DNA of 64,000 nt from Patiria pectinifera (Eukaryota; Echinodermata; Asteroidea; Valvatida; Asterinidae), in NCBI GenBank assembly GCA_029964075.1, contig CM057144.1, forward strand, positions 11,865,281 through 11,929,280, in the 5' to 3' direction. A program made the position numbers and the translations under genes. This document shows positions 12,458 to 41,278 of the stretch, piece after piece (within the stretch, counting starts at the first letter, position 1; each line of letters starts with the position of its first letter). The notes under the pieces were generated by a model, which was not told the origin of the DNA, did no database searches, and saw nothing but the letters and a program-made list of their open reading frames with translations.

Positions 12458-12587
12458 CCCGTCTGCTACGTACTCTCCTGCAACTCTTCACGAAGTGTTT
12501 CTAAATCTTGACAACAGCAATACTTGAAGTAACCTGTGTCTTTGATTTTAAGCGCTCAAATGAGCAAGCAGCAGCGGTTGCAACAAT

Positions 12588-14850: not shown

Positions 14851-14880
14851 GATCTGATCGAAAGGTACATGCTAGAACTT

Positions 14881-16939: not shown

Positions 16940-17110
16940 CTTCGGTTCTCGCAATATCTCTTCGTTCACCGTGTTGATGTGTATGAGACGCGTGGAGCTG
17001 GCTCAGTGGTTGGTATTTCCGCCACCAGAGACAATGTAACCTTTGCCCTCTGGCAGGCGGCCACACCTAATGCAGGAAACCACAGCAGGATATTTTCTCC
17101 TACCCTCGAG
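16940..17110 (+). CDS. aGPCR exon 1 seen: FBXL4-like galactose-binding module, part 1
   Basis: After a CTCCCTCTTTACAG acceptor, 57 codons run to a GAG|GTAAAA donor (phase 0 to 0). The stretch with [18 protein letters not shown], a LW pair and SRIFSPTLE matches in pattern the beta-sandwich of FBXL4 (a discoidin-like fold). The first strands of this fold should sit on an upstream exon that I could not find. Confidence 0.8.
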
Positions 17111-20100
17111 GTAAAAATAAGAGATTTTTTTAAGCTTTAAAGTAACAAAATCTGACCAAAAATCAAAATTGTATCGAGTATTCTTAAAAATAACTGCAGT
17201 AGCGCACAATTGTAATTAACTTCTTGTTCTTTTGTTCTTGGAAATCGATTTTTTTCGGAAGGAACTCTGCACCGTTTTAATTGCTTCATTGATTTTTTTT
17301 GGTAGGCAGTATTTTTTTGGTCGCTCGAGAATCGCTTCACTTTTTAGTCCTGCAAATTTGTTTAGCCTTGTCTGTCTCGTATTTCTGCGGAACAAGGAGA
17401 AAAGAGGCTCTAAACGAGATTTAATTACTCGGCAATTAAGTGTTAAAACAGTGCGGCAGAATCGGGATGCGGTGCTGCCACCTAGAGGCTGAGTACTGCC
17501 AGTTAAAACGGCCGCAATTTAACAACAGGGGGCTTTGTTTTCCTGTTCAGTTTCTGCCCGTTGCTGTGGATACCGTTATCTTACACATCAACACCACACT
17601 AGCAAGACACGTGGAAATAGATGGTGTTCAAATACACGGTAGGAATGGTAAGTGATTAGCTGAGCTGGAAGATTTCATGTTATTTACGATTTTTTATTCA
17701 AAATGCAGACCACAGATGGCAAAATTTAAGGAAGTCACAACACAACGTGAGAATAGATTTAACCTTCTCAACGAGAATTGAAATTTTAAACATTGAAACA
17801 TAAGCAAGATTTGAAACTTTGCATGGTGGTAGTGTACTCTTGTGAGGTTTGCGGTAAAACCATGTGGAATAATCTCATTTTGAGAAAAAGTGTGGTTCTG
17901 AAAAGAACCGGGTAGTTGTGAAACTCGACGTTCCGATCAGTATGCTCTGATCGTCTTCAGTATCTCTCCTGAGGGCGATCAGTGCATACTGATCGGAACA
18001 TCGAGTTCGTGTCAGAACCACAGTTCTTTTCAGAACCACTCTTTAAGCTTCTCAAAAAAGAGATTATTCATCATGGTGTTACCGCAGACCTCACTGGTCA
18101 ACATTCAAACAGATGAAGGAAATTGACAGACAGAAAGAAAACAAGCTGAAAATTCATGTTGTGTACTTCTAGTGCTGTTATTAAGAAAAATGCAGACAGA
18201 CTTTTTGTCAGAACAAAACCTAATTATTGGACTTGCGTTTTTACCCACGGCTAAACAATTAGATTCTGCTATGGGTGTACGACTGACGGACGGACCAAAC
18301 CCGTACACAGGAATCGTTGAAGTGTACAACATGACCTGGGGTCACGTGTGCGATGACCGCTGGGAGATAAAGGACGCCCAGGTCGCCTGCCGCCAGCTGG
18401 GCTATAAGGGCGCCCTCAATGCGCTGACTGGAATCAGCGTGACTGATGGGACCCAGCGATTTCTCTTGGATGAAGTAGACTGCACCGGACAAGAGGAGCG
18501 GCTGTTGGACTGTGCACATGACGGGTTGGGGCAGCACAACTGTTACCATTACGAGATAGCTGGGGTAATCTGCAAAATGTCTGGTAAGGTTGTGGAATAC
18601 AATTTATTTAGGATTTAATTAAGCCTGAAAACCAATCTGGATACGTTTAATATGACTAATTAATTATGTATGCAATTATTAATTAAAATGCTCGTAATAG
18701 TTTATGACTTAATGCACTTGTATTAATAATGATATTTCGGGACCATTTTTAGGTGTTAATGAGACTTAAAGGTTTGCATGGTGGATATGAGGAGAAAGAT
18801 TGGAAAGTTTACGTTAACACCATGCGAATAATATGTCTTTTGAGCTGTGAGGTTCTGAGAAGAACCAGAACACTTTTAGGTGTGTTTCTTGTGTAATCCA
18901 CATACCTTTATTAAGCACTAATTTCTCCATGCAACATAAAGTTATCATGCATATTACCTCTCTAGAGTACCGCATTTACCAACGGTCTTGCAAGTTCTTT
19001 AAGTTGGATCATATTGCTCACATAATAAAGTTGTTAAATCCCGAACGATTAAGGCAGTAAGGGACTCAGGAACGAATAACGGCACATGAACCCCGAAATG
19101 ACTTCAACGACTTTATTCTAGCTCTTACGCCTTATATACAAGTTATCTACAAAGACCTTAACCAATCAACTGTGTACGTATTGTTCCCAATAGCCAATGA
19201 AAAAAACAGGAATGTGGCTATACATATTTTGTGCTACGTTTACTGAATTTCGACAACGATCTATGCCCATACTTTTTGAAAGAGGTTTGACTGTTGCCTG
19301 TGCCCTACCTCTCCGTATTTGGGTTATTTCTGAACGTGGCTAAGTTTGCTCAGTGAACAGAAGAACGTTTGCTGCCTAAAAGGGTTACCAACTGTCCTGG
19401 TGAACAACTCTCGTTTTGGTTTCACTATTATTGTTTCAGAGGACAGTCATCCGTGCGGAGCGGCTACATCTGATTCGAGCGTGTGCTCGTGTAATGTACC
19501 ATACATCACCAATGCGAGTTGCGACAGTCGTCACGCCAACTCCAGCAGTTGGAGTAGTTACAGCAGCAGCTGGTACGGTAGCAATTCATACAGCTACAGT
19601 AGCGACAGCAACAAGAGCGTGAGCTCGGATATCTGGCCAGGTTGTGATACATTCCTGGATGAGGACTGCCATCCTGAAGACAGTTTCTTCTACAATAACC
19701 TTGCCGATCAGCCATGCGGTGACTGGTGGTGCGACATACGCTACGAAGGTACGAGATCCCTTCCTAAAACCCGGGCTAAAGCTGTACTGTTGCATTAGTT
19801 TCTCACTCGCAACATTGCTCTTGTATAGTTTCTCTTCGTTAAGTGTTATACCAAGATTTAATCAATGGGGATTTTAATGAATACAATCTTTCTTCATTAA
19901 AGTCGGTAGAGTTTGGAGCAAGGCAACTTGTTTGATGGCGTTTAATCAAATTATTTCCTCTTTTTTCCCCGGGAAACAGAGACGTTTATCGACATAACCG
20001 ATGATTCACTTCACGCATCGAGTAACTCTAGTCTCTACGTCGAGCAGTATCTCCTGAGTGAAGCGCCCTCTTCCGACCAATCCGAGCCTCCCCTCAGCGT

Positions 20101-23100
20101 TGTTCACTGGTGCGCCCTCACCGGCGACGCTTACCAGTGGTTGGAGGTGGATTTCGGCCGGCAGATGGGATTGACCTGGTTGATATTTCCGGACATTGAG
20201 GATTCCCCGAGTTGGATGGAGTCCTTCAGACTATCCTACACCAAGGGCGACCTCTGGCGGTTTTATTCTGAGACGAGTAGACCTAGCGATCCAATGGTAA
20301 GTTTTGCTCATTTTGAAAAACAAAATCTTAATGCAGATAATGACAACCCTTCATGTATTTTGTGTGTAATATACATTGTTCTAAAATGCTATGTTGTTTT
20401 ACAAGCAACCAACGAAACCGTTTGTCTTACCTGTGTGCATCTTTGCAGAATTTCAGACTTGGCGCGAACGAGACCGAACGGGAGGATGAAGTCTCTTTTC
20501 CGACTCCGCTTGAAGCGCTGGCGATACGGATCCACCCATCCACCTGGCGAAGCCAGACTACCTGTGTCAACATGGCCGTCGTGGGATACGAGTTGTCAGG
20601 TAGAATGAGCAGAAAGTCACACCGATTAGATATGGCTGACACGTAATGTTGCCCTATACAAATCAATACTTTTGCTGATTGCATTTACTTCAAAAGTGCG
20701 AAGTTTCTCTTCTGGTTTTCAAATGTCTTTGTGTGTAAACAAAAGTAATACTTAAATCAATGGTTTGTCAGCTCAGAATAAATAAAAAACACAAACAAAT
20801 AGCAAATAATAATATTCCGCAATAATTGCTCCGTGACATGATTAGACATGTATGCTGCCTCAATTCTAATTGCACGAAAATCTTACTTTTATGTAAATTC
20901 GCTATTAATAGAGCTCCCGGAAACTAAATATTTTCTTTACTTGTTCACCATTAATTCGTCAGATTGACTGGGAAAAAAACGTCGGTGTGAAATCCGCACT
21001 GTGTGGTACACGTACGGTTCGAGTGGTTAAATATTAGATTTCGCACACTGTAAATTTAACACCGCTAATTTGGAAGTGCATTGTGCGTTACTGTTGTCAT
21101 CAGTTGTCACACGCGAGCTCGGGATGCAAAGCCACGCGATTGTGAACAGTCAGCTGTCGGCCGAGGACAGCAAGCCGGACTACCCACCTCAGGAGGCCCG
21201 TCTGAACGGCCCAGAGGCCTGGTGTGCTGAGTCAACCACCGACAGCTTCTACCGGATTGACCTCTTGCTTTTGACCTACGTGGAGGGACTACTCCTGCAG
21301 GGTCGTGACCCGGGTCAGGGGTCACGTAACGGCACATGGCTGACGTCCGTTCGTGTGCTTCTACAAGTTCACGAAACAGAATGGTCAACAAAAACGGTTA
21401 GTTAAGTGCCATATTTATTCCAAAATAAATGCCCATTACAAGTTCAGAGTTGTCATGTTACGATAACCTTCTACGTGAAATAGGAAATTTGCCTGCCGCT
21501 GGAGTCGAACCTGTGACCCGCAGATTACCTTACCTGTGCTCTATTAACTCTCCAATGACTGGATTTTTTTTCCAACTTTGTCATAGATTTGGTTCTGTTC
21601 AGCTTGGCAGGGTTTTTTTTATGAAAATGCAAATTGTAGAGTTAAAAGCAACATTTCACAACATTTCACACATAATAGCCTACAGTCTAGAACAAATTCA
21701 ACGTGTACAAAAACTTTCGGTACTCCAACTTGTGCTTTGATTTTTAAAATGTCATTTCAGACTTATGAAATCAGTGCACAAGACTGGAATACTTCCACAA
21801 TAAACTTGAAGAAACCAAGATACGTCCGTTTCGTCCGGTTGAAAAATTTCCAGTGGGTCAACGACCTATGCCTGCGAGTTGAGATTCTGGGAACGATGCA
21901 CATAGGTAAGTTTGCAATGGGACTCAGCTCGCCTCTAGGTGGCAGCAAACTCGTAAGTGGATTTCGAGATGTTCGAGGGACACTCGTTTAATGACCGCTG
22001 TTTATGCGCAGGCGACTTTAAAAGACTAAAGTCTTTGATTGGTGTTAAAGCTTTCCGGCATAATCGAGAGAAAAATCTATACCTACCAGGCCCAAGAGTT
22101 CAGCATATTTTTCAACCTAACAATCGTTGGCTTTCCTGCATGAGTTAGCCAAACTGCATTTTTTAAGTGAGGCCCTGTGAAAGCTCTTTAACCACACACA
22201 AAAGAGTTCAAAGGATGACAGGTGCGTCTCAAAATGGAGCCATTCTTTGATTCAATTCTACTTTTTAAAAGCTTATTCTCAGCTGAAACTTTCCTTTACT
22301 TCCAGTCAATTCCTTCTCTGCCGACTTTGAGGACACGGTACCCTTTTGGCAAGATCGTTCGGTAAGCAACGGGACATGGGCGTGGCATAGATACGGAGAC
22401 TTCGCCGAGGACAATGTCACTCGCGCTTTCGACGGTAAGCAAACATTATCATTTTGATTGCCTTGACTTATGATGAACGTTTTATGTGACCGATTGTATT
22501 ACCCAGAGCATAACGATTTACATAATTTTGCATATCTAGGCAACTTTATCTTCTACGATTGGATGAATGCAGCGGCAGATTGTATCGACGGACACCTGTC
22601 GACATCAAACGGGCCCAATAACAGCATTACGACTCAGATGCCGACCCAATCCACAACACTGCGTTCCTCGATGCTTCTGTCCTCTACACTACGGTCCACA
22701 ACGTCACAATCCACACAACCTCTGTCATCCACGGAATTCCCAAATACTGGATCGAACGGAACAATGCCAACAACATCTACAGCAACACAGACATTCACAA
22801 CATCAACATCTACAACACCGACATCCACAACACCGATATCCACAACAATGACATCCACAACGCCGACATCCACAACACCGACATCCCCAACACCGACTTC
22901 CACAACATCGATATCCACAACAATGGCATCCACAACACCGACATCCACAACACCGACATCCCCAACACCGACATCCACAACACCGATATCCACAACAATG
23001 ACATCCACAACGTCGACATCCACAACACCGACATCCAAAACGGCGACATCTACAACATCCAGATCCACAACATCGACATCCACAACATCGACATCCACAG

Positions 23101-26100
23101 CACCGACATCCACAACACCGACATCCACAACACCTAGATCCACAACATATCTGTCACCGAGCTCAACCACCGAACTGTACACAGTCTGTGCCTATGGAGG
23201 CTCCCAAGGGCCCTTTGTCTCTCGCCTGTTGGCTGCAACAAGCACCGGACCAACAGCTTCATATGTAGCCCGCTTCCGATTTTTGGTCAGGGGTTCAAAA
23301 GCTGATACCAAACTGGCCGTCTTCATCTCAAAAACCGATGAATATGCGGTTATCTCAGAGACAAGAATTTGGCAACAACCGGCCCAGGGACCAAACAGCG
23401 AAGTACAGGATGGATACACGGAGTTTCAACTTCGAGAAGGGGACCAGGTAAAGGTTAACGTTCAATCTTCATAAAATTAATGATCAATACAGTACAGTTG
23501 AACATATCGGTAAGAAACAAATCCTCAGCATTAATGAGGTTTTTCGTGTTACCTTTAGGTTATTATCGAAGCCATCATCGCCAAAGACGACATCGAGGCC
23601 ATTATAGCCATTGATGACTTGAACCTTTTCAAAGGTAAGTTGGATATTAAATGCCAAAAGTATACGCTAAATCCACGAAACAGGACGGACGTGGATATTT
23701 TTTTTTAAATATGCATTTATGTCGCAGGAGCTAGTGAGCCTGAACACCTCGCATTGGGTATGAGCAGTACGAAGCACTGGTGGCGCATATCAAGCGAGCA
23801 CCTGAACGTGTCCAGCGAGAGGCCACCGAGCGCCAACGGGAGTTTTCAAGCGGACAACGCCCGGCTGAACACCGAGGAGGGGGCGGGTGCTTGGTGCCCC
23901 ATGAGTAACGACCAAGACAGTTGGATTCAGGTACTTGTAAATCAAACTTGAGGACGGCATTCCTTATTATAATTTTCTTCAAGGTTTCAAACCCTTACAT
24001 TCTTCGGTCATTTTCTTAATAAGAAATTGAAGACTGTTGAAATAATCCACTTGCATCTTCAGTCACACAACCACCGTGGTAAAATTGGCTCTTCAAATTT
24101 TGTTCGCACTTATAGGTTGATTTCGTGGCAGACGCGGATATTTACGGGATAGTCATACAGGGACGAGCATCCTTTGACGAATGGGTTGAGACTTTCTCGG
24201 TGTCGTATTGGACGAGTGAGGAAGGATGGAAAAACATAACCGACGCTGACGGCAATGAGAAAGTAAGTATTCTTTCCCCCTCCACCTTTTTGTTATTATT
24301 AAAAACCGTGTAAACAATTTACTGATAACATGTTCGACCCATATACACAAAACTGCTATCGAAAGTAATTTGTAAATTTGCGCGAAGCACACATGGTCAG
24401 CTAGGTGCAAAAAAAGACGACTGTTTGAAGATTTAAATTTTTATTTAAGAGTACATTGGATCAACCGAGTGTGCAGAGAACACAATTGATAAAAAGGTAT
24501 TGATTCGGTCGGCAACGGGAAGCAGCTATCTTCAGTGTCATTTTGATTCCAAATTAATATTATTGTCCCAAAACTATATTCTTTTTCTAGATTTTTGTGG
24601 GATCATACGACAGTGTTACACCAATCCACGTTGTATTCGACGAGCCAATCAACGTACAACTTGTGCGCATCTACCCAGTCACGTGGCACAATGAGCCCTG
24701 TCTACGGATTGAGTTGATAGGCTACAAGCGTAAGACTGCGTTTTGCAATTTTTTTCAATTTAATAAAATATATTAGTCTAGTTGTGATGAACATTCATTA
24801 CACGAGGTTTAAACTGATTATGATAACCTCCGATATAATTGAAACATTTCACTTAACAGGATAACGATACCTGAACTTGTGTCAGCTTTGCGATACTCAA
24901 CCATTTTGTAGTTTAGTATTCTTACTATATCATATATCAAATGTCATGGATTGCTTCTGTTGATAACTCTAACAATTATTCTCTTGTTTACCGCCATTAC
25001 ATAATAACATAGCAAAGTTAAACACATTTTTACATTTTTTTCTCATGACTATCTGACCATCCGTGTGACCACTCATTCCGCCATCTTGGTAAAGGAACAT
25101 CCTGCATGTCATTTTTCAAAAGCACAACTGTGCAATCAGTTGTGTCCTGCACTGCATGAGAACAACATCACGAATCCAGAATGTTTAATCACATGTTTTG
25201 TCTGTAATTTGAAATAACCTGTACCGTAAATCATGGTCAATTAAATGGTGTAATTCGTCTATTTTATGTTCAACCGTGGATGTCGTTGTGCCGTTGTGGA
25301 ACAATTCTTTTTGTGATTGGCACAGTTTTCGTACTTCACTTTATAAGCACGGTGTCCTCACGCAATATTTTTTTCTTGTTCAATGTTGTACTCTTTTTGA
25401 GTCCATGAAGCTTTTCGTACCTAAAATATACTGTTCTTTTGTTTCTGATCACCATTTTGGTTTTAAGCATGATTGAAAAAGTTAAACGTGAAAAACATTG
25501 CCACTTGTCCGAGTTTTCCCTTAAAACTGCATGATTCCAATTTTGTCATAAAAACTGATTCGATATATTTCTTCAACTAGAAAGAAACATGTATTGTCCT
25601 GTCAATTATTAAGGCTTGCCGGCTACCGATCCTGTAGAAGACAATGCCACGGAGGGTGAATTTACCAGCGAAGCAATGACGTCATCGGGATACGGAACAA
25701 CAGACGATACTCCCTCGTCAACCGTTGATGCTGAGTCTACACCACAAGAATCTAGCACGGATGAAAGAAACACCGTGACCATCCCAGCAACAACGGGGAC
25801 CGGGTTGTTAGGTTCTGGAACAGGAGACGACTACCCTGGTACAGTAACTGACGCTGCTTACTCGTTTCCACCTACCTCGTCAGATACTGTGATCCAGGGA
25901 ACGGACATAACCTCAGAGGCTCAGACTTTTAAAAGCACAACCCTTGAGGTGCAAACTACGCAAACCTCCACCGTCGAACCTCAGACATCAAGAAACCTCG
26001 GTGTGACCTTAGGAACAGCGAGTCTAGACACCACACCTTATGAACCTCAAACATCGATGATTCATGATGCAGTGGAAATGGCACCAAGTCCGAAGACCCA

Positions 26101-32100: not shown

Positions 32101-35100
32101 AATAAGCGTCTAGCACAACACTTAAGCTTACGAATGTTCTTGGCTTCCTGAGATATTTTCCAAGTGTCTAGAGGCTATGTTTTCACCAAGAACGTATTTT
32201 GAAAGCTTCAAGACGGACGGTTTCGAATTTGATTTCAGGTTGTTGAAGTCCCAGCGTGTCATCATCCACGTGAACCTGGCGGTCTCGCTAGCCGCTGCTC
32301 AGCTGCTTTACCTGACAGGGATAGATGCCACGTCTAATCAGGCAAGTCGTCGTCTCTCTATGACATTTTGAACAAGACAGACGCATTAAAAGAGACAGCA
32401 CGGAAAGCTGAAGAAACCTTCAGAGAGGAAGAGAAAATGTGATGCGATCAAGCTGGCGTGAGTCGTTTGTCGACCCTACTCAATTTTTTTTATTACAGAT
32501 TTGAAAAGCGCACAATCTCAGCATTACTGCTGTGAAAACTGCACGGCTGGTACCATCTTTAGTTCAAAAATTATGGAAGTCGGAACACCAAAAGATGTGA
32601 TGAAGTGATGTGATGAAGTGGCCCTATTTTGGCCTGTATATCTCCAAATAAAAATTCCCAACAAACGACTCATTTTAATAGCTTGATCACATCACAAATG
32701 ATGAATTTATATTCAGTATTATGGGGAAAGCCGGAATGATAATCCCAGAAAACACACGGAATCAGCGTGTGGTTAAAAAATATAGCTTATCTTGGGCAAA
32801 GGCGGAGGAAAGCATAATACTATGTGAGCATTTCCCTTATAAAAAGCGGAGGAAAATGTCCCCTTCCATGATTTTAAAAGAGAAGTGGGATGGCGTTGGT
32901 ATAGCCATGTAGCATAATTATCTGTATCACTACACACTTTGCTTCTAGGGATGGTGTAAGGCTATCGCAGTCCTGCTACACTACCTCTTCACAACCTCCT
33001 TTGCGTGGATGTTCATGGAGGGCGTTCACCTCTACATGAAGTCTGTGGCGGTCTTCGGTAAGGGGCTGAAGACGTGGATGTACATGGCCATAGGATGGGG
33101 TAAGTCACATTGTCGAGAATCAGAAAAGCTTGGTACCCTTGTCGGATGTTGCACGGCTGAAGAAAGAAGCAATGATTAATGTCATCACCATTCTGAGTGA
33201 CGAAATACTTGTGATCTAAAAAGCCTTTCCACTTAACATTGGTTTACATGGTTCGTTTAGTCTCAGCAATTGCTTTTTGACAGTGAACAAACACAGCACG
33301 CAATTACCAGCTTTCACAAGCCGTAATATTTAAGTTAGATAGTGAAGGGGCGCTCTTGTATCGGTTAAGTTTCCTGCACCAAGGTAAACTTTGCGATCCC
33401 AATAAAGGCCGCTCAAACAGAAAATTACATTTTGCAAAATTGGCACCAGTCCGGAACTGAAAAAGCCTAGATACATCTCGGACACTTGGTGGCAGCAGAC
33501 ATAATTTTCGTTTCCGGTTAGATGGGTTAGATGTTTATGGAAAACTATTGTTTACTATGGTATCTAAACATTGCCTAGGGTTAAGTGTAACAGCAACATT
33601 GGTGTACATGTAATTTTGTCCCCCTCCCTGATGCGCCTTTCACGGCATATTATTGTGTATGGTATCCCGACGTCGTTTCGTACATCCGCTTAGTCCATCA
33701 ACATTTTGCGTCAGCTCCTTGCGTCATATTGAGCATGCGCAGCAGGAGCGAGAGGAAAACCTTTCGCCAGCTAATCAAAGCATTATTAACAGTGTCTGCT
33801 ATGAGACGAAAAGCTTGCATCTCTTCGCGGGTGAAAAACCTTTTCCATGTGGTTGTTGGGTCACCTACCGTGATCGGCGCATTATAGGCCTACGCTCTGT
33901 CGGTTCCCGGCCCATCGACCGTAAAGCGATAACAACAGGTCGACTGGCGGCTTCTAAGTTGTTGATTTGTTCGGATACCATTGCAGGGGTTCAGTCGAGG
34001 GCGAGATCTTTAAGGAATCCCTTAGGACGGATGCCGGATCCTCGAAAACCGCGGATGTTGTCTACTCTGATAGGATCGGAGAGGCAATATTACAGAAGGG
34101 TTGCCTAAGTAGATGAAAGAGGAGGCCGAATATCATCGGTCAATCTCGTGTCATCGACTTTCTCGGTGTATTGTGTCGATATTACGAGCGGCCGTGAATA
34201 AGGGGACAGTCTGATCGCTAAGGAGGAGTTGCAGTAATTCATCCAGTAATTTCCTTTCCCTAAATAACATCTGATTGCAAATCTTGTTGACTGAAGCATC
34301 GCAGCCATTCAATTAAACACACTGGACCTCAACACCTCACCAAACTCTATCTGAAAAATCATATTATTATAATGATTTTTGAAACTAGTTTGGTATCTCT
34401 AGCAAAGTTCTGGTGACCAGCACTGTAACAAGTCATAGGAACTTCACCACGCATTCTGGCTACTGCTTTCACAATTGCATTTTTCGAAAATGTAAGATAC
34501 ACCAAGCTGGACTTTCAAGCCAATACTTATTCTAGGGACATAAACGCTGCGTATTACTTGGAGTAATCATCTCAGAATCGTCATTTTTTTCTTGTGTGTA
34601 GGGTCTCCACTGTTAATAGTCGGCGTTGCCCTGGCTGCAAGGTTTGATGGCTATGGCACTGAAACCCGGTAAGGAAATGAAACATGACGTAACCACAACC
34701 CCCCCCCCCAAAAAAAAAACATCCCAACTTGAATAATAATAATAATCGTAATGATAATAATATTCATTAATGACGCATTTTCGAAACATTTACTGAAAAA
34801 TGGGAAAATAATAATATTTTCTTCATGAATATTATACACGATTTTATTTGCAAAGGCGTTTTAGTCTGGATCATATTTTTCAGAACAAATGGCTCATTCA
34901 ATTTCTTGTCTTGAATACAACTGTATTTCGTGAACAAGTCGAAATACCCACATGAAAACCAGATCGTTCATGAAAACCAAATCGGTCAAACTTTGCATAT
35001 TTAGGATTTTACTTTCTTGAGAAACTGTTTTAATTTGATACAGACAGACGTTTTTGACAGAAACCTGATATGACGAGATTATAAGCCAGTTCATTATCTG

Positions 35101-38100
35101 GAGCGATATAATGTGACAAAGCATCCTCTACATCAGCGTTAACACACACTATGTTGGTAATCAGACGCTGAAAGCCATCACACCTATACCTGGATGCCTC
35201 GAAATTGGTGACAAAGTAAGACAGAAGATGCTAGATCGAATTTTATCAGGCCATCTATACTGAGAAAATGTGTCAAACACTTCCGAAAATGGGTCACGGA
35301 GAACATGGTCAATTACTAACACACTTTTTTACGACAGTAAGCCGTGAAAAACATATCCTGTTTTGGCCAGCTTGGTAATTTTAACCTTGGGCATGGGGGC
35401 TAGGGTGCATCACCTGACACCGTACGCGGTATATCTTGTTTGCCGCGATTTTGTCAAATTATTTTGGCGTTGTGTTACACACAGCTGCTGGCTGTCCCTC
35501 GACAGTGGCCTCATCTACGCGTTCGTAACTCCAGTGGTGGTTGTCGTGGTGGTAAGTGCTCAACGGCCATTGCATGTACATGTTTATCCTGGTGTGGTGA
35601 CTGTTTTATGACTCACACTTATTCAAGATTCGCCTTCTGCCTTATCAAACCTTAAGCCGAATGCGACTTAAAGGTCATTCCAGACCTAGGGAATGCTTGC
35701 TTTTGCAAGCTTGCCTGTTTGTCTGATTTCTGAAAGTTCAAGTTTCCGTGTGCAAGTGTATACAATCTTCAGGGAGCCAGACGTTATTCAAATGTCCCTA
35801 ACAAATGGCTTATTATGCCACTTTTGATAACGAACAGTATTCATGCTGGAGGCAAAATCCATACGAATCACACTTTTTTTCCTCTTTCCTGCACACCTGT
35901 ATCAACATCGTTAACTTATAAAGTGCCCCGGGTCCCCATGAGAGGACTCTCACTACACGGCCCAAAGATCAACTGGGTGAATTTCTGTTGATTTTCATGA
36001 ATCCCGTGCCCCTTCTCGAGAATTATTTATGGGCTGAATGTTGTCCTTAGCTTGTCGAAAGCATTTCGACCCACGGTTATCCTACCCTGTGATCGGAGAA
36101 GTAGAACTAGAACTTGGTGGATGCGAGCGTTTGCCGTAATACTCGTTTTGCATAGAAAACCCGTGTTTTGTGCAATGAAGCGTTCAAAGACCAACCGAAG
36201 CAAAATCGGGTTCACTCACGGACATTGGGCCCCTTTGGTTTGATTCTACAGTCTCCGCCTCCAGTATAGCTGGGGGCGCCCCGCTCTGTACGGGATTGAC
36301 CGATTGATATCCCGCGCTCAGCTGCAGGCATAGATATCGTCTTGTGTCACCGAACTCAAAGCCACTTGCAAAGGAGAAGAAAACAAAGATGGTGAAAAGT
36401 CAGTGCCAAAAGGCCATGTTTCATCGATCGTATATGGATTCTCAATTTACTTATTGGCTTTATACACGGAAGGGAATCTAAGAGCACATGATACGGGCTT
36501 CCATGGCGATATTATGTCGAAGTGAATCAAACACTGCTTTGAAAAGGCCGGACGACATGGCACTTACAGTCAATGTGATCAAATGTCGCTTTAATTCCTG
36601 AAATGCGATACCGATTCTTCGGAGTTCGGCAGATTTGTGACACTTTCACGGTCACTTTAAAAGCGGCAGTGCAAAATATCTCCAGGCAGCTAGCAGCATC
36701 TTGCAAAGCGAGAATGAAAATGACCACATCTCTGTGCCATTCAAATGCAATCCACCAAGCTCTAGGGACTTGCGATGATTTCTTTCACACAGCTTTCGCC
36801 GCAAGATAAAAGAGGAGATCAATTTAGGTGAAACTTATTAAACCAAATTTGCTAACCTTTATAAGAAATTGTACGGTTTCTCTTGAGCAGCTGAACACGC
36901 TTATATTGGTGATGGTGATTCGTGTCTTCATGGGGTTGAAGGCGAATGTCGACAAGACGGAAAAGGAAAAAATCAGGTATTAAAAAAAGGTTCAACGAAT
37001 TAAAGAATGAATTCAATGTTAATGTGTTACATTACACTTTTTCTTAAAACAAATAACATTCTAGAAAACCTAAGAGGTCACCGTGTATTTCTAGTTGAAC
37101 TTCAATGAGTTTCTGTAATATTTGATATTCTTGACGAAGAAAAGAAAATTGTGCCGTGAGACATTTACACGAAAGTTTTTCCGTCAAGATTTCTCGGAAA
37201 ACGCTATAAATCAAGGATTCCAAGCATTCATATGTACCTTTTTAAAACACAATCTTCTTTGTTAATAATAATAATAAATAATAATAAAAGAACATTTGTA
37301 AAGCGCCGGTATCCGCCAAAAATAGGCGCTCATGGCGCTCGAGGAGAAAGTCAAGTTAGGATTGTGTATTGTGAGAGTAAGCTTGTTTGTACAGGCGAGA
37401 TTTTATGTTTGTCTTAAATGTTGTGATGGATGGAGATGATTTGATAGCCAGAGGGAGTTGGTTCCACACTCGGGTTGACGCTGGAAAGAAAATCCGCAAT
37501 GTTTTGAAATCCAAAGAGTTTCCACTTTGAAACTCAGACGGCTCATAATGATGGAACATTGATATCCCACCGTCCCCAGGGCCGGCATCAGGGCTGTTCT
37601 CCTGCTTCAACCCCTCCTGGGATTCACCTGGGTCTTCGGTCTGTTCTCAGCCTTCGACGACACGCTCTTCTTCACTTACCTCTTCGTCATCTTTAACTCC
37701 TCCCAGGTAAGGTCTTGTGTCAAACTAACTGTCAAGGCGTCAAAGTTCCATGCCTTATCGTATCCAGTGGTGTACTACGGGGTCTATTTATCTATTTATA
37801 CATATGTACTACGGGGGGATCACAGGGCCTCATGTTCTTGAGGGAAAACTCAATGGATTTAACAAGATACCTTAAATCTTTTTTGCTTGTGGGACAAGCT
37901 AGCCCAATTCCCCCCCCCCAGTTTACGCAACTGACACAATTATACGTTGTATACATTATTATTCAACCAATATAACCATTATTCTGCAACACTGTTTTGA
38001 CGCTAGTCTTCTTCGAGCGCGTGGGGGACTTTTGACCGATGACCGATAGCGGCCACCGTACGAGTCTAATCCAGAACTCAGGTTTCAATCATAGTTTTCC

Positions 38101-41100
38101 TCTTTCTTTTTTCCCTGTATCAGGGTGTCTTCATTTTCCTTCTGCACTGCGTCGGCGATTATGAGGTAAACTGCACATTTTTTGTTTTATATCAAATATA
38201 AATACTATCGATTTTGCATAATTATTATGTCATTAGTTGGTGTGACAGACCGAGCCACTAAGCTCCGCCCCATTATGTTTTGACCAATCACAGGGTAGAT
38301 TAATGTCAGTCATGCGTGCACAAAAGTCCGACATGCGTGCACGCGCGTATGACGCGCGCAGCTGGAACATATGCAGTGTGGCATTGCAGAGGAACACGTG
38401 TCTATGGTTAAAGATTGCCAAGTGCATCGGCATTTATCCGGTTCGTAAGTGACTTCGTCATACACGCGCACGCACCACTGATTATGAGCGCCCATTGGAT
38501 AAACACTCAAGTTGCGTTAACTTCCGGTTCCATTGGTGCCATGCTACACCATGTACAGTAAGTTGAGATGACGTCACACTTACGAACCGGATAGGGCGCA
38601 TCGGCTGCGCCGTATCCGGTTTGTTAGTGTGACGTCACCTCCAGCACTTTCTGCATGATTGGAACCGGAAGTTAACGCAGCTCGAGCGTTTGTAGCCAAT
38701 GGGCGCTAGTAATCAGTTGGGCGCGCGCGTGTATGACGTTTTCACTAACGAACCGGATGGAGTACCGAAGTGTGACGTCATTTAGAACCAGAAGGTGTAG
38801 TGCAAACGAATGGAGTATGCGCGCGTGTTGGTTCACAGACTGAATCACGCGCTCATGTCTTTTACACACATTTTGTGCGCGTGACGTATTCACTTATGTA
38901 CTCCATTTTGAAGAAATTTCGAGCAACTCGCGCGCGTGTTAAGAACATTTGGCACAGTGCGCGCAAACGCACCTGGTGGCGTTTAACACGCAGTGGGCGG
39001 GGCTTACCGGATCGCTATACTCCCCCTGTCATTAGTCTTGCACTTCAAGGTCCTTTTAAGTTTTAAGGAGGGGAAATAATGCGCAAAGACAGGAAACCAA
39101 TTTGATTGACGTGCTAAGCAAGAAAACTCAGCTGAGAGTGAGATCCAGTCACAAGGGATATTATATCCAATAATATTTCGGCAGGTAGCCTTTTTTTGGC
39201 TACAAAAGCAAATAATTAAATGCCCGCTTGTCTATCAGCTCTAGAAAGTTGGCTCCATGTGATTTTAACTCTTCTGTGCTTAGCCCCTCCGTGAATTTGG
39301 CCCAAGTTGTATCAATTTTTTTCACATGATGATTATAAGCTTCGGCCTGCCGGGAACACTCACTCTTGCGCATCATCGCCATCCCTTTCAATTTAGCAAC
39401 ATTGATTCAAACGATGTGTGAGCCGCATTAGTTAATACCATTGATGGTCAAAATGCGGGGTTTATGCTCAAAATGTGCGGTGATGGTCATGCGAAATGGC
39501 GGATTGTAAAAGTGCAACTACAAGCTGATGATCTCCCCGACGAGTCAGCGAGGGGGGTGGGCGCCTGTGCCACGCCGCCGGGGCATTGTTCTTTGGAGCA
39601 CATCATCAGGGGGCTCGTGTCTCGTGGATGCTCCATAGTACGTTGGCCTGCATCCCGTACGCATCAGGGAGCTGCACTTTTCCTGTTTATTTCCGCCCTC
39701 GGTGCGCATCGCATATCGACAGCGAATTTCCTGATAATGGGGGGAAAATCTGCACAGGTTTCAGTCCTTACAGTCTGTCAGCGCAGCGCATCTCCGTACA
39801 GCCATTCAACCCTTGAAATCAGTGGGTTTTTAAAAGTCTTTACGATGTACTTCCGCGACAAAAGTACTTCGGTAGAGGTCAGATCCTCATGCCAGAAAAA
39901 AAACTGAAAGAAAACTTTTTCTTCGAAATCATGCAATTTCAGACCCCATGGTGTAATCTGTTTGCGGTAACAGTCACAGATAGTTAAACGTCCATATCTA
40001 AATGAATACTTCAGGGAAAGACATCTCTGTTAAAAATTGTTTATTTTGATACAAAATTAATAGAGGCAATGCAAGGAAACTGAACCAGTTCAGCTATAAT
40101 AAAAGAATCCTTTGGTCTGTATTATTTTCCGCACAGGTTCGTAAAGCCTTCAAGAGGTACCGTGGTCGCCGCCCTGCCCCCTCGCCTTCTACCGACTGCT
40201 CGGCGGTCAACAACTCCAGACTAACCCGGAAGCAAACGGAACAGAGCATGACCGCACGGGCGCCCTCAACGCCGGGGTCAGGGAAGAAGCGAGCGCCCTC
40301 AACGCCGGGGTCCGGCAAGGAGGCGCATGCGCTGTCGACGGAAAGAAAGGAGCGCCATTTGACGAGCCAGGTAAAGCCCAAACAGAATTCGGTTTCGAAA
40401 CCTGTCAAGGCGGGTTCTAAACATTGAGAAGGTTAATGTCAAAGTCCCAAATATCGACTCACCGTCACTTTTCAATTTTGCAAGACCTTGACATTCGACA
40501 GTTACACATATCAATTATCAATTTAGGCCGTAAAGGAACTTGCCCTTTCTCTTTTTTTTTTGGGAGTGCATTTTGATACCACTTGCCCCAATTAATAAAG
40601 ATGTCTGAATCTCTACTTAAACATTACTGTTAGAGCAAACATCATTGGATCCAAATGAATCGTTTATAAACATAGACTGATCTGAACAAAGAGAGATTTG
40701 TGTTTTACAGGATTTGAACAGTATACGGCTGAAAAGAAGAGAACCCAGCAGTAAGTAAAAATCTAGTACCCGTTCAATACAAATAAACTTGTACGTAAGG
40801 GAAGAAAAAGTTAATAGAAGGAAATTCGATATTCTGTTCCTTTTTGGATTTCATTCGTTTTTTCGTCGATTCAATACCATTCTACTCATTCAGTCAAACT
40901 TTAAAGCGAACTTACACTGCAAAAACTGCAGTGTTAAATTTACACCATTGGTATATGTATAGGACCACCTGGTGTTAAATTTTACTGGTGTTGTCCTTTA
41001 TAGATACCAAATGTGTTAAATTAACACTGCAGTTTTGCAGTGTAGCATCTATTCCGTTCCAATTTCGTACACTCAAATTTGTACCAAATCTCCGCACTAA

Positions 41101-41278
41101 CTGCCATTCATTTTTCGGCAATTGCTTTCCCACAGCAGTGTCCCTCACTTCCAAATCGGCCTGGGCAAAGGACAACGCGGAAAACAATGCAGCGACGACT
41201 GGAAGTAAGTCTAAGAATTACGAGATCGACAATGGAACCTCCTTCCCAGGTATGCCGGAAGTCAAGACGGATCTCTAG
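16940..41278 (+). CDS. multidomain adhesion GPCR (FBXL4-like/SRCR/F5-8C/MAM/mucin/GAIN/7TM), 33 exons, 5' incomplete
   Basis: Gene-level entry; the exons follow separately. Thirty-three exons with mutually compatible phases give 6,420 nt: 2,139 codons plus a TAG stop. Domain order: FBXL4-like galactose-binding module, SRCR, Cys/Ser/Tyr-rich linker, F5/8C, F5/8C, MAM split by a Thr-rich minisatellite, F5/8C, mucin-like stalk, GAIN, GPS, 7TM (secretin-like, family B2) and a cytoplasmic tail. The GPS reads [13 protein letters not shown], so autoproteolysis and a tethered agonist starting TNFAVLL are expected from what is known of adhesion GPCRs. Extracellular modules suggest binding of glycans, lipids or microbial surfaces (inference). 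The N-terminus is missing: there is no signal peptide and the first visible exon begins in mid-domain. All introns are GT-AG except one GC-AG. AATAAA follows at 41,502. The closest general description is an adhesion G-protein-coupled receptor of unclear subfamily; no named orthologue is claimed. Confidence 0.9.
17551..17647 (+). CDS. aGPCR exon: FBXL4-like module, part 2
   Basis: Acceptor CCTGTTCAG, donor G|GTAAGT, phase 0 to 1. It encodes [20 protein letters not shown] then VQIHG, matching the closing strands of the FBXL4-type fold (the Arg/Leu-rich strand and the ELDAV-LHG ending). NTT is a possible N-glycosylation site. Confidence 0.8.
17841..18094. mobile_element. 254-bp inverted-repeat element with histone-3'-end-like hairpins
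   Basis: The arms begin TGTGAGGTTTGCGGTAAAAC and, in reverse, AGTGAGGTCTGCGGTAACAC. Each arm holds a 16-nt hairpin of the histone mRNA type: GGTTCT-TTTC-AGAACC on the minus strand at 17,909-17,894, and GTTCT-TTTC-AGAAC on the plus strand at 18,023-18,036. Both are followed by a CTCAAAA(A)-GAGATTATTC purine-rich word. The centre is a second foldback around GATCAGTATGC. It lies in the intron before the SRCR exon. A diverged half copy is at about 18,773-18,880. Confidence 0.7.
18263..18583 (+). CDS. aGPCR exon: SRCR domain
   Basis: A complete scavenger-receptor cysteine-rich domain on one symmetrical exon (phase 1 to 1, 107 codons). Visible: [58 protein letters not shown], and the closing VICK. 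The cysteines fit a group A-like SRCR of about 100 residues. SRCR domains bind polyanions, bacteria and proteins (family knowledge). Confidence 0.95.
18773..18880 (-). repeat. half copy of the histone-hairpin element
   Basis: The reverse complement reads GGTTCT-TCTC-AGAACC followed by CTCAAAAGACATATTATTCGC and CATGGTGTTAACG, matching one arm of the element at 17,841-18,094 with the loop changed to TCTC. No inverted partner is present, so it is a truncated or unpaired arm. Confidence 0.55.
19030..19353 (-). repeat. possible solo LTR
   Basis: In minus orientation the segment would begin TGTTCACTGAGC and end CGGGATTTAACA, with an AATAAAGTCGTTGAAGTC polyadenylation-like word about 110 bp before the end, as in Gypsy-type LTRs. 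No matching 5-bp target duplication or second LTR was found, so this is tentative. Confidence 0.3.
19440..19748 (+). CDS. aGPCR exon: Cys-rich and Ser/Tyr-rich linker
   Basis: Acceptor TTGTTTCAG, donor AG|GTACGA, phase 1 to 1, 103 codons. The first part has closely spaced cysteines ([17 protein letters not shown]), the middle is a Ser/Tyr/Trp/Asn low-complexity run (about 30 residues), and the end again has cysteines (CHPEDSFFY...CGDWWC). I recognise no family. Phase continuity and the absence of stops support it as an exon. Confidence 0.7.
19980..20296 (+). CDS. aGPCR exon: F5/8C discoidin 1, N-terminal part
   Basis: Acceptor GGGAAACAG, donor ATG|GTAAGT, phase 1 to 0. It shows the discoidin opening ([11 protein letters not shown]), HWCALTG, the QWLEVDFG strand, and [17 protein letters not shown], equivalent to the usual YS-DG-W segment. 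Confidence 0.9.
20449..20599 (+). CDS. aGPCR exon: F5/8C discoidin 1, C-terminal part
   Basis: Acceptor CTTTGCAG, donor CAG|GTAGAA, phase 0 to 1. It encodes the characteristic closing strands [20 protein letters not shown] followed by VVGYEL. Confidence 0.9.
21104..21396 (+). CDS. aGPCR exon: F5/8C discoidin 2, N-terminal part
   Basis: Acceptor TGTCATCAG, donor ACG|GTTAGT, phase 1 to 0. It carries [34 protein letters not shown] and a loop richer in Gly than usual ([17 protein letters not shown]). NGT is a possible glycosylation site. Confidence 0.85.
21481..21560 (-). repeat. tRNA-derived SINE relic
   Basis: On the minus strand GAGTTAATAGAGCA (A-box-like, about 21,550-21,537) is followed by GGTTCGACTCC (B box, 21,511-21,501) at tRNA-like spacing. 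No complete cloverleaf or acceptor stem forms, so it is a SINE or tRNA pseudogene fragment, inside the intron that splits discoidin 2. Confidence 0.5.
21761..21905 (+). CDS. aGPCR exon: F5/8C discoidin 2, C-terminal part
   Basis: Acceptor GTCATTTCAG, donor AG|GTAAGT-like, phase 0 to 1. It encodes [20 protein letters not shown] and VEILG, the typical last two strands of a discoidin domain. Confidence 0.85.
22306..22434 (+). CDS. aGPCR exon: MAM domain, part 1
   Basis: Acceptor TTACTTCCAG, donor G|GTAAGC, phase 1 to 1. [20 protein letters not shown] then TWAWHRYGD resemble the opening of a MAM domain (FE...W.Q....DW.R). The usual first Cys residues are absent. Confidence 0.75.
22540..23447 (+). 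CDS. aGPCR exon: MAM part 2, Thr-rich mucin insert, MAM part 3
   Basis: Acceptor CATATCTAG, donor CAG|GTAAAG, phase 1 to 0, 302 codons plus. It opens with GNFIFYDW (the G-Y-D strand of MAM), continues into about 190 Ser/Thr/Pro-rich residues dominated by TSTTP repeats, and then resumes MAM with [28 protein letters not shown] and RIWQQP. The mucin block thus sits in the loop before the ARLLSP-like strand of MAM rather than between domains. It is likely heavily O-glycosylated (inference). Confidence 0.85.
22790..23145 (+). repeat. 15-bp coding minisatellite (ACATCCACAACACCG), about 23 units
   Basis: Units of 15 bp encode TSTTP or variants (TISTT, TPSPT). A higher-order period of 75 bp (five units) is visible: GATATCCACAACAATG recurs at 22,835, 22,910 and 22,985. 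Because unit length is a multiple of three, copy-number change keeps frame. The array is probably length-polymorphic. Confidence 0.9.
23559..23634 (+). CDS. aGPCR exon: MAM domain, last part
   Basis: Acceptor ACCTTTAG, donor AAAG|GTAAGT, phase 0 to 1. It encodes [20 protein letters not shown] then LNLF, the end of MAM where FEA-RG and IALDDI are usual. Confidence 0.85.
23728..23930 (+). CDS. aGPCR exon: F5/8C discoidin 3, N-terminal part
   Basis: Acceptor TGTCGCAG, donor CAG|GTACTT, phase 1 to 0. It carries [20 protein letters not shown], a [13 protein letters not shown] segment and DSWIQ, the standard discoidin opening. Confidence 0.9.
24116..24262 (+). CDS. aGPCR exon: F5/8C discoidin 3, middle part
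   Basis: Acceptor GCACTTATAG, donor AAA|GTAAGT, phase 0 to 0. [18 protein letters not shown] continues the W-I-Q-V-D-F strand, and [17 protein letters not shown] matches the YS-DG-W element. NIT is a possible glycosylation site. Confidence 0.9.
24591..24729 (+). CDS. aGPCR exon: F5/8C discoidin 3, C-terminal part
   Basis: Acceptor CTTTTTCTAG, donor C|GTAAGA, phase 0 to 1. It encodes [20 protein letters not shown], the canonical closing strands. Confidence 0.9.
25614..26602 (+). CDS. aGPCR exon: mucin-like Ser/Thr/Pro stalk
   Basis: A long exon (329 codons plus, phase 1 to 0, donor AAG|GTACTG). About 300 residues rich in Thr, Ser, Pro and Glu with imperfect repeats on the theme [15 protein letters not shown], then a transition to [19 protein letters not shown] that should begin the ordered part. 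It is probably an extended, O-glycosylated spacer that lifts the binding domains away from the GAIN domain. Confidence 0.85.
26718..27096. mobile_element. MITE related to the GGCCAAAA family
   Basis: The ends GGCCAAAAAAAATAAATATTCG and, in reverse, GCAAAAAAAAAAATAAGTCG both continue with GTCTCTGGTCAG. It lies in the intron between stalk and GAIN exons and finishes about 70 bp before the next acceptor. It is more diverged from the copies at 4,868 and 59,193 than those are from each other. Confidence 0.65.
27169..27354 (+). CDS. aGPCR exon: GAIN subdomain A, part 1
   Basis: Acceptor TTTCTTTCAAG, donor AAG|GTAAAA, phase 0 to 0. Predicted helical residues ([20 protein letters not shown], then a [16 protein letters not shown] helix) fit the helical GAIN-A. 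Confidence 0.85.
27573..27641 (+). CDS. aGPCR exon: GAIN subdomain A, part 2
   Basis: A 23-codon exon (phase 0 to 0, donor ACG|GTAAGT) encoding [23 protein letters not shown] is a possible N-glycosylation site. The F-L-V-L pattern matches the middle helix of GAIN-A. Confidence 0.8.
28114..28252 (+). CDS. aGPCR exon: GAIN subdomain A, part 3
   Basis: Acceptor TTATTTTCCAG, donor TAG|GTAAGG, phase 0 to 1. [20 protein letters not shown] is the classic last GAIN-A helix (LL..VD.FA..L), followed by the NTT sequon and ANDNL. Confidence 0.9.
28762..28878 (+). CDS. aGPCR exon: GAIN subdomain B, first strands
   Basis: Acceptor TTTGATCCTCAG, donor GAAA|GTACTC, phase 1 to 1. It gives [20 protein letters not shown] and VFSLPASSF, matching the GAIN-B pattern N-LVLQ ... 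F-LP. An alternative acceptor at 28,780 would drop six codons in frame; 28,762 has the better pyrimidine tract and restores NLVLQ. Confidence 0.7.
29201..29373 (+). CDS. aGPCR exon: GAIN subdomain B, middle strands
   Basis: Acceptor GCTACAGCAG, donor CAG|GTATGC, phase 1 to 0. It contains VFKTLHNAI, the SEVVSLTV strand and PVVLSFQL, as in other GAIN domains. Confidence 0.9.
29538..29590 (+). CDS. aGPCR exon: GPS, first cysteine pair
   Basis: A 53-nt exon (phase 0 to 2, donor CAG|GTAAAT) encoding [11 protein letters not shown], where the GPS consensus is CVFWDF. The extra adjacent Cys is unusual. Confidence 0.9.
29784..29904 (+). CDS. aGPCR exon: GPS cleavage site and tethered agonist
   Basis: Acceptor TTTTTCTACAAAAG, phase 2 to 0, donor [20 protein letters not shown] and [17 protein letters not shown] are textbook GPS. 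The His-Leu/Thr cleavage triad is intact, so self-cleavage after Leu is expected and the peptide TNFAVLLQL would be the tethered agonist. Confidence 0.95.
30309..30345. repeat. (AACC)n microsatellite
   Basis: About nine near-perfect AACC units in the intron before TM1. Confidence 0.9.
30676..30782 (+). CDS. aGPCR exon: TM1
   Basis: Acceptor TTTTGTGTAG, donor AG|GTTAGC, phase 0 to 2. [20 protein letters not shown] and IGLFCFL form TM1 of a family B2 receptor. Confidence 0.9.
31180..31770. repeat. G-rich repetitive intron segment
   Basis: It contains GGGGT arrays (about 31,361-31,392) and an 18-G run (31,666-31,683), both able to form G-quadruplexes on the plus strand, plus recurring GGGGGCAC-TTT words. 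Probably a decayed transposon; the short open frames are not genes. Confidence 0.5.
32239..32341 (+). CDS. aGPCR exon: TM2, followed by a GC-AG intron
   Basis: Acceptor TTTGATTTCAG, phase 2 to 0. [20 protein letters not shown] is TM2. The donor reads CAG|GCAAGT, a GC donor in an otherwise perfect consensus, as is usual for the minor fraction of GC-AG introns. Confidence 0.9.
32949..33099 (+). CDS. aGPCR exon: TM3 and start of TM4
   Basis: Acceptor TTTGCTTCTAG, donor G|GTAAGT, phase 0 to 1. [20 protein letters not shown] followed by MEGVHLY is the adhesion GPCR TM3 signature, with the conserved Cys for the loop 2 disulfide. WMYMAIGWG begins TM4. Confidence 0.97.
34602..34668 (+). CDS. aGPCR exon: TM4
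   Basis: Acceptor TTGTGTGTAG, donor CG|GTAAGG, phase 1 to 2. It encodes [20 protein letters not shown], the end of TM4 and start of extracellular loop 2. Confidence 0.93.
35485..35551 (+). CDS. aGPCR exon: extracellular loop 2 and TM5
   Basis: Acceptor TTACACACAG, donor GTG|GTAAGT, phase 2 to 0. [20 protein letters not shown] includes the conserved loop 2 CWLS with the disulfide Cys. Confidence 0.95.
36891..36976 (+). CDS. aGPCR exon: end of TM5 and intracellular loop 3
   Basis: Acceptor TTCTCTTGAGCAG, donor CAG|GTATTA, phase 0 to 2. [20 protein letters not shown] then DKTEKEKIR; the charged stretch is the usual third intracellular loop. Confidence 0.92.
37250..37550 (-). mobile_element. 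3' end of a CR1/L2-like LINE
   Basis: On the minus strand, [20 protein letters not shown] followed by [11 protein letters not shown] and SRLY is the standard C-terminal end of many non-LTR reverse transcriptases. After the stop comes a short 3' region with a GCGCC hairpin and a TTATTATTATT tail (plus strand 37,263-37,287), as in CR1/L2-like 3' ends. The 5' side is truncated. It sits in the intron and ends within about 40 bp of the TM6 acceptor. Confidence 0.85.
37580..37706 (+). CDS. aGPCR exon: TM6 and start of TM7
   Basis: Acceptor CCGTCCCCAG, donor CAG|GTAAGG, phase 2 to 0. [20 protein letters not shown] is TM6 with the LGFTWVFG motif, and [11 protein letters not shown] opens TM7. Confidence 0.97.
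38124..38165 (+). CDS. aGPCR exon: end of TM7
   Basis: A 42-nt exon, phase 0 to 0. [14 protein letters not shown] is the QGVFIF end of TM7 common to adhesion GPCRs; the Q is supplied by the previous exon. Confidence 0.95.
38436..38592. mobile_element. nested MITE, copy 1
   Basis: It begins ATCCGGTTCGTAAGTGA and ends TCACACTTACGAACCGGAT. Its interior (TTATGAGCGCCCATTGG, GTTAACTTCCGGTTCC) recurs inverted in the second copy. Confidence 0.65.
38614..38758. mobile_element. nested MITE, copy 2
   Basis: It begins ATCCGGTTTGTTAGTGTGA and ends TTTCACTAACGAACCGGAT, in inverted orientation to copy 1, separated from it by a GGCGCATCGGCTGCGCC palindrome. Confidence 0.65.
39250..39305. mobile_element. 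fragment of the GGGCCAATTTC foldback family
   Basis: CCATGTGATTTT, GTGCTTAGC and CTCCGTGAATTTGGCCC match the ends and interior of the palindromic element at 2,617-2,855. Only one arm is present. Confidence 0.55.
40137..40370 (+). CDS. aGPCR exon: cytoplasmic tail
   Basis: Acceptor TTTTCCGCACAG, donor CAG|GTAAAG, phase 0 to 0, 78 codons. It starts with [12 protein letters not shown] (helix 8 region) and is strongly basic and Ser/Thr-rich. A 33-bp direct duplication (40,257-40,289 and 40,290-40,322) repeats [10 protein letters not shown], giving two possible phosphorylation segments. Confidence 0.9.
40711..40750 (+). CDS. aGPCR exon: cytoplasmic tail, short
   Basis: A 40-nt exon, phase 0 to 1, encoding [13 protein letters not shown]. 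If the donor A|GTAAGT is not used, the frame ends at a TAA six bases later, so an isoform with a shorter tail is possible. Confidence 0.75.
40915..41042. mobile_element. Tc1/mariner-type MITE with TA target duplication
   Basis: A 128-bp element starts CACTGCAAAAACTGCAGTG and ends in the inverse, flanked by TA on both sides (40,913-40,914 and 41,043-41,044). It lies less than 100 bp upstream of the last coding exon. Confidence 0.75.
41136..41278 (+). CDS. aGPCR terminal exon
   Basis: Acceptor TTTCCCACAG (or three bases later at CAG), phase 1, ending at TAG 41,276-41,278. It encodes [20 protein letters not shown] and ends [10 protein letters not shown]. The C-terminal TDL could serve as a class I PDZ ligand (S/T-x-hydrophobic; inference). 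Confidence 0.8.

Follow-up and report, generated by a model that had tools for sequence, protein, structure and literature searches.

Does the locus at positions 16,940 to 41,278 encode a single adhesion GPCR, in which an unusual ectodomain is joined to a self-cleaving seven-transmembrane (7TM) core, or do its exons belong to more than one gene or product? We addressed this question in the 64-kb window, the whole stretch of DNA that was analyzed (C16:11865281-11929280). Judged from its sequence, the locus very probably holds a genuine adhesion GPCR gene whose ectodomain is unusual; our model of it is incomplete at the 5' end, and its FBXL4-like and MAM modules are weakly supported. We propose, with a probability of roughly 0.7, that it is one gene for an adhesion-class GPCR of an echinoderm, most likely a sea star, with an exon-shuffled ectodomain and a mechanism of cleavage and tethered agonism as outlined below.

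Open frame and receptor core

The first-pass annotation had proposed that 33 exons join in phase into one frame of 2,139 codons. When we rebuilt these plus-strand exons (16,940-41,278), they formed a single open frame of 2,144 codons with a terminal stop codon and no internal one, which bears out the proposal over the same span with a small correction in length. The chance of a stop-free run of 2,144 codons at this composition has a log10 of about -57. GT-AG sites flank all 32 introns, except for the GC donor of exon 24. Splice-matrix scores are low for the acceptor of exon 3 (-1.9) and for the donors of exons 19 (-2.8) and 22 (-1.5), and close to zero for the donors of exons 14, 15, and 28. 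An in-house splice/codon predictor, run without input of the exons proposed earlier, gave identical ends for 27 of the 33 exons in the final model, and 17 further exon calls within the span were dropped. This predictor is not independent, because 11 of the 12 stretches listed from the same region had served to seed its codon table, and its agreement on exon 32 (40711-40750) is circular, since that exon was taken over from the predictor. Exon 32 is therefore tentative within the cytoplasmic tail, which ends in KTDL (exons 31-33, 40137..41278, plus strand), and exons 32-33 of this tail are the least certain part of the gene model. Between exons, we also observed inverted repeats of 40-71 bases with 83-88% complementarity (17842-18094, 38436-38758, and 40922-41036), which are perhaps small mobile elements.

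The 3' portion of the frame encodes the receptor core. Exons 23-30 (30676..38165, plus strand) match the seven-transmembrane family 7tm_2 in Pfam (6.7e-61), and the hydrophobic segments over threshold number exactly seven, all of them after the GPS. The GPS motif itself lies in exons 21-22 (29538..29904, plus strand; Pfam GPS 7e-15), with a predicted cleavage at HL|T between 29868 and 29869, and the 11 residues directly after it, starting with TNFAVL, are the predicted tethered agonist. When the GAIN-7TM portion was used as a query, it matched 117 distinct PDB sequences (E ≤0.001), the best being an ADGRL3 chain (2.5e-74), a second ADGRL3 chain, and ADGRD1 (5.2e-68), followed by secretin-family receptors. 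Of the self-cleaving 7TM core described by the first-pass annotation, the 7TM part and the GPS are thus confirmed by the 7tm_2 and GPS matches, and self-cleavage is predicted from the presence of the HL|T motif. For its GAIN module the matches diverge: the region before the GPS (exons 16-21, 27169..29590, plus strand) aligns with the ADGRL3 chain by phmmer from query residue 122 on and leads into a significant GPS, whereas Pfam gave no GAIN match beyond the GPS. In the 5'-incomplete model the N-terminal part spans 1,744 residues and carries adhesion modules, namely an SRCR domain and three F5/8C domains. Taken together, the core and the predicted cleavage motif place this protein among the adhesion GPCRs (class B2). 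No lectin, olfactomedin, or HRM match of the kind that would place it in the latrophilin (ADGRL) subfamily was obtained from Pfam in the parts scanned.

Gene boundaries

Whether the ectodomain and the core belong to the same gene depends on the junction between exon 15, which ends at 26602, and exon 16, which starts at 27169. This junction is in phase. Read beyond its donor, the frame of exon 15 runs into a stop at 26660-26662, an AATAAA follows at 26728, and the GAIN exon is preceded by an in-frame ATG (27043) with no stop between them; separate or shorter products are therefore possible. These signals could mark two genes, the first (exons 1-15) for an SRCR-F5/8C-mucin protein that is secreted or has an anchor of its own, and the second (exons 16-33) for an adhesion GPCR with a short ectodomain. 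Such a division would also fit the near-zero score of the donor at 26602, and the predictor likewise divided the locus, but at another place, the repeat of exon 10, which it read in a different frame; we judged that division to be wrong. We nevertheless consider two genes unlikely, given that the sequence after the ATG contains no signal-like hydrophobic stretch (the best 11-residue hydropathy mean is 1.05) and that exons 15 and 16 join in phase. The stop in frame with exon 15 and the poly-A signal behind it could instead reflect alternative 3' ends of one gene, yielding a soluble decoy ectodomain alongside the full receptor. AATAAA is common here, however, with 61 occurrences on the same strand of the window, and we rate this arrangement as somewhat less likely again than two genes. 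A bacterial promoter/terminator scan of 26.5-27.3 kb is uninformative for an animal gene. We thus retain a single gene with a single receptor product as the preferred reading.

At the other end of the model, exon 1 (16940) opens at a splice acceptor, and the model has neither a start codon nor a signal peptide. Within the reach of our motif and splice/codon scans, neither the window nor the 20 kb upstream yielded a start codon, a signal peptide, or the missing first half of the FBXL4-like domain, and for lack of a start or signal peptide we regard the gene model as 5'-incomplete. Within the window, tblastn and phmmer with a presumed FBXL4 sequence also found no first half of this domain. The splice/codon scan yielded no candidates between 14.86 and 16.94 kb, either as internal exons of at least 120 bases ending in phase 0 or as signal-like first exons. 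Over the start of the window and the 20 kb upstream of it, a scan for internal exons of 60-420 bases in phase 0 returned 147 candidates, the best 26 of which are one tandem-repeat frame located 12.7 kb before the window. Three upstream candidates ending at 13336 passed the motif filter but had negative scores, and none was convincing. We rejected two further possible starts: a signal-like frame at 16894, which does not share the frame of exon 1 and crosses the polypyrimidine tract of that exon, and a hydrophobic stretch that runs from 18190 ahead of exon 3, because exon 3 is phase 1 on both sides and is in phase after exon 2.

Just upstream of the adhesion GPCR, the minus strand carries a trio of tandem class A (7tm_1) GPCR genes (9119-10108, 11573-12484, and 13876-14862). 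Each occupies a single open frame, intronless over the matched stretch (Pfam 7tm_1 7.3e-43, 7.5e-40, and 9e-44), and the three appear mutually alike by eye.

The incomplete 5' end could also mean that the gene is truncated or decaying, with exons 1-2 as the remnant of a longer gene whose beginning was lost. Consistent with such a loss, only half a domain is present, no start was found in the window or in the 20 kb upstream, and the three minus-strand GPCR genes lie between. Against a decaying gene speak the 33 exons, which stay open over 2,144 codons, and their mostly good splice sites, and we consider this explanation very improbable. In the following, we therefore continue with the reading of one gene with a 5'-incomplete model.

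Modules of the ectodomain

The most N-terminal module in the model is the FBXL4-like one, encoded by exons 1-2 (16940-17110 and 17551-17647, plus strand). In one-to-one comparisons with a presumed human FBXL4 sequence, this stretch gave a phmmer match of 1.4e-5 and a blastp match of 6e-5 (26 of 102 positions identical). With the same query, the two exons ranked first and third among 2,183 ORFs of the window, a ranking that is not significant on its own because the E-values are only 2.4 and 4.3. Pfam gave no match for the stretch, and the PDB gave only matches of E >0.5. The FBXL4-type fold of the first-pass annotation is reduced to a putative second half, which is carried by the one-to-one match, and a complete domain was not recovered.

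The SRCR domain that follows is well supported. Exon 3 (18263..18583, plus strand; phase 1 on both sides) encodes a single domain with six cysteines (Pfam SRCR 1e-27) that matched 26 distinct PDB sequences at 1e-5, with CD163 as the best. At the positions that correspond to SALSA residues 1019, 1020, 1023, 1026, 1058, 1059, 1060, 1081, and 1086, it has D, D, E, D, D, E, V, N, and E, respectively; in this ungapped comparison seven of the nine cation positions are identical, and two are D-to-E exchanges. Arranged by site, these residues are D, D, E (site 2), D, D, E, N (site 3), and E, D, V (site 1), in a register that we set ourselves by counting the spacing from the CDD motif. Counted in the same way, one CD163 domain has D, D, E; D, D, E, N; and D, D, M. 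The scavenger receptor domain of the first-pass annotation is therefore upheld as a member of the SRCR superfamily with its cation-site residues retained.

Exon 4 (19440..19748, plus strand) encodes a Cys- and Ser/Tyr-rich segment of no recognized family, with no significant Pfam match. A comparison of exon 4 and one of the class A GPCRs with NCBIfam, which is a prokaryotic library, gave no match either. The three F5/8C modules proposed for the protein are all significant in Pfam: the first is encoded by exons 5-6 (19980..20599, plus strand; F5_F8_type_C 7.9e-10 when scanned alone), the second by exons 7-8 (21104..21905, plus strand; residues 474-595, the best stretch of a two-stretch match of 5.7e-24), and the third by exons 12-14 (23728..24729, plus strand; 1.1e-21).

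Between the second and third F5/8C domains, exons 9-11 (22306-22434, 22540-23447, and 23559-23634, plus strand) encode a MAM-like region. Only its second half resembles the Pfam family PF00629 (E 0.0049-0.0067, profile positions 65-154 of 158), with a score of 17.2 bits where the cut-off is 26.4. No Pfam MAM match was obtained for the first half by itself or for either of two insert-free constructs that join the halves, and the MAM construct gave only matches of E >0.5 in the PDB. The MAM domain that had been proposed here is accordingly narrowed to a sub-threshold second half, and no whole domain scored above the Pfam cut-off. The two supposed halves are separated by an insert of 191 amino acids in exon 10, with 67% Ser+Thr. 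The DNA for this insert includes, in the coding frame, a minisatellite with a 15-bp unit and 24.3 copies (22783..23147, plus strand; Tandem Repeats Finder). The frames of this minisatellite are open on both strands. A second Ser/Thr-rich stalk (34% Ser+Thr) is encoded by exon 15 (25614..26602, plus strand). A more far-reaching reading would join these features into a single-copy pattern-recognition adhesion GPCR, with the SRCR cation site and three discoidins mounted on a tethered-agonist 7TM core and a coding minisatellite inside a MAM fold, where the length of the allele would alter reach or adhesive specificity between individuals. We regard this elaborated version as unlikely, and the preferred reading remains the one-gene receptor without it.

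Relatives, proposed action, and known systems

We searched the genome of the same animal (613.5 Mb, 1,020 contigs) for relatives of both halves of the protein. A query of exon 4 with the F5/8C pair, for which all 47 candidates were scored, gave 11 matches, of which 5 are the gene itself and the other 6 have E-values of 0.0013-0.018; exon 4 had no relative elsewhere among these candidates. The FBXL4-like half gave three matches (4 of 4 candidates scored), two in the gene itself and a third with E 0.29. For a query of the MAM and third F5/8C regions, the MAM part (query 1-115) matched only the gene itself (139 of 587 candidates scored). The first 601 residues gave at least 77 matches (73 of 1,068 candidates scored), 7 in the gene itself and the other 70 over the SRCR part. 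Since no close paralogue of the ectodomain was found among the candidates scored, the ectodomain set is likely, on these matches, to be single copy.

The core has many relatives. A GPS-7TM query gave at least 120 matches (119 of 593 candidates scored), and the nearest paralogues, on contigs C10, C9, and C76, are about 50% identical over query positions 120-194. In the 20 kb upstream of the C10 paralogue we recognized Ig-like and Thr-rich stretches by eye, and tblastn found no match there to the ectodomain of the present gene. Of 20 further loci picked by the TM3 exon, the predictor was run on 8, one of which (L017) has EGF-like repeats by eye. If the gene model holds, these loci would illustrate how the GAIN-7TM core is combined with differing ectodomains within one genome, which has at least 150 GPS matches. 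Three other 7tm_2 receptors lie in long open frames of about 710-725 amino acids with Cys-rich N-termini (L001 at C6:21660796, L002 at C21:22573866, and L005 at C21:15303100) and are Methuselah-like by eye only. Among viral contigs, a pattern match was obtained at 20 stretches, none of which was confirmed.

We also looked at which modules are located near each other. The source tables are lower bounds, with 150 of 509 candidates scored for 7tm_2, 150 of 184 for GPS, 73 of 1,068 for the SRCR query, and 150 of 871 for F5/8C; from these, the co-location lists took in 131 of 149 7tm_2, 143 of 150 GPS, 68 of 77 SRCR-query, and 57 of 153 F5/8C matches, and those left out are mostly from clusters on C8, C14, and C3. 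At two places on C4 (5015154/5043530 and 5769745/5803175), an SRCR match and a GPS match share a strand, the SRCR match being the upstream one by 28-33 kb. That contig has many GPS matches, and the two pairs are possible further SRCR adhesion GPCRs. No F5/8C-GPS pair was present among the 57 F5/8C matches used, a table that is no test of absence because the present gene's own F5/8C exons are missing from it. Dense SRCR matches form a cluster at C3:2435543-2513548, and large F5/8C match clusters are found on C8 and at C14:7.29-7.52 Mb.

Based on the adhesion GPCR class and on structural work on SRCR domains, from which the mechanism is carried over to the residues observed here, we propose the following model. 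Exon shuffling would have built the receptor from half an FBXL4-like fold, an SRCR domain, a Cys-rich linker, two F5/8C domains, a MAM-like region with a mucin-like insert, a third F5/8C domain, a mucin-like stalk, the GAIN/GPS region, and the 7TM core. The motif predicts that the receptor self-cleaves at HL|T and that its two parts stay together non-covalently. The SRCR domain, via its cation site, and the discoidins may bind to polyanions, to glycans, or to surfaces rich in phospholipid, for example those of microbes, dying cells, or matrix, while the two Ser/Thr-rich stretches may act as glycosylated spacers. Pull or ligand binding would then free the 11-residue tethered agonist, thereby activating the 7TM core and the G protein, a step that is established for the class. 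Pattern recognition or matrix sensing by the receptor is plausible because the cation residues of the SRCR domain are retained. If the model holds, a scavenger-receptor ligand site with a retained cation pocket would be coupled directly to G-protein signaling. In this animal, which as an invertebrate lacks vertebrate-type adaptive immunity, the sensing of microbes or matrix through an adhesion GPCR could then be put to the test.

Several of these features are known from other receptors. Like ADGRL3 and ADGRD1, the present protein has a 7tm_2 core and a GPS with HL|T, and it shares the TNFAVL start of the agonist with the ADGRL3 chain; unlike them, it gave no Pfam match to a latrophilin-type ectodomain module. 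Its SRCR domain has the fold, by sequence match, and the cation-binding residues in common with those of SALSA/DMBT1, MARCO, and CD163, but here a single SRCR domain is joined to a GPCR. The accessible parts of a recent review (PMC13197933), a choanoflagellate survey (PMC12716839), and a history of vertebrate adhesion GPCRs (PMC8584163) contain no mention of such ectodomains that we could find. Nor did we find a description of the full module set in the available portions of the literature covered, a scope outside which most subscription journals lie.

Closer parallels come from other invertebrates. According to the sections available, SRCR and discoidin are among the N-terminal modules of adhesion GPCRs in amphioxus, as they are in the present gene, although those sections do not state that both occur in one receptor and mention neither FBXL4-like nor MAM modules (PMC2246102). 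The sponge adhesion GPCRs Aq712029 and Aq715659 likewise carry SRCR, in the form of multiple repeats and with no F5/8C named in the accessible figure legend, in contrast to the single SRCR domain found here (PMC4302439). In the crown-of-thorns starfish Acanthaster planci, the leading partner domains of SRCR proteins, as read from the columns of the available table, are Sushi, EGF-like, LDL-A, F5/8C, and 7tm_2 (PMC10855680); two of these, 7tm_2 and F5/8C, are shared with the present gene in a comparison by domain table rather than by architecture. Available parts of further reports describe sea cucumber adhesion GPCRs that were left unclassified (50 of 56 and 38 of 39; PMC7042368) and sponge SRCR and adhesion GPCR genes that respond to microbial patterns (PMC6208332). 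The ectodomain set, which the first-pass annotation had called unusual, did not recur elsewhere in its own genome among the candidates scored, but its novelty is limited by the SRCR and discoidin adhesion GPCRs already published, as far as the accessible parts of those reports go (PMC2246102, PMC4302439, PMC10855680). Because its modules and some of their pairings are known from other invertebrates, we see the gene as a variant of interest and not as a receptor of a new kind: the combination is new, but the receptor class is known and shuffles its modules freely.
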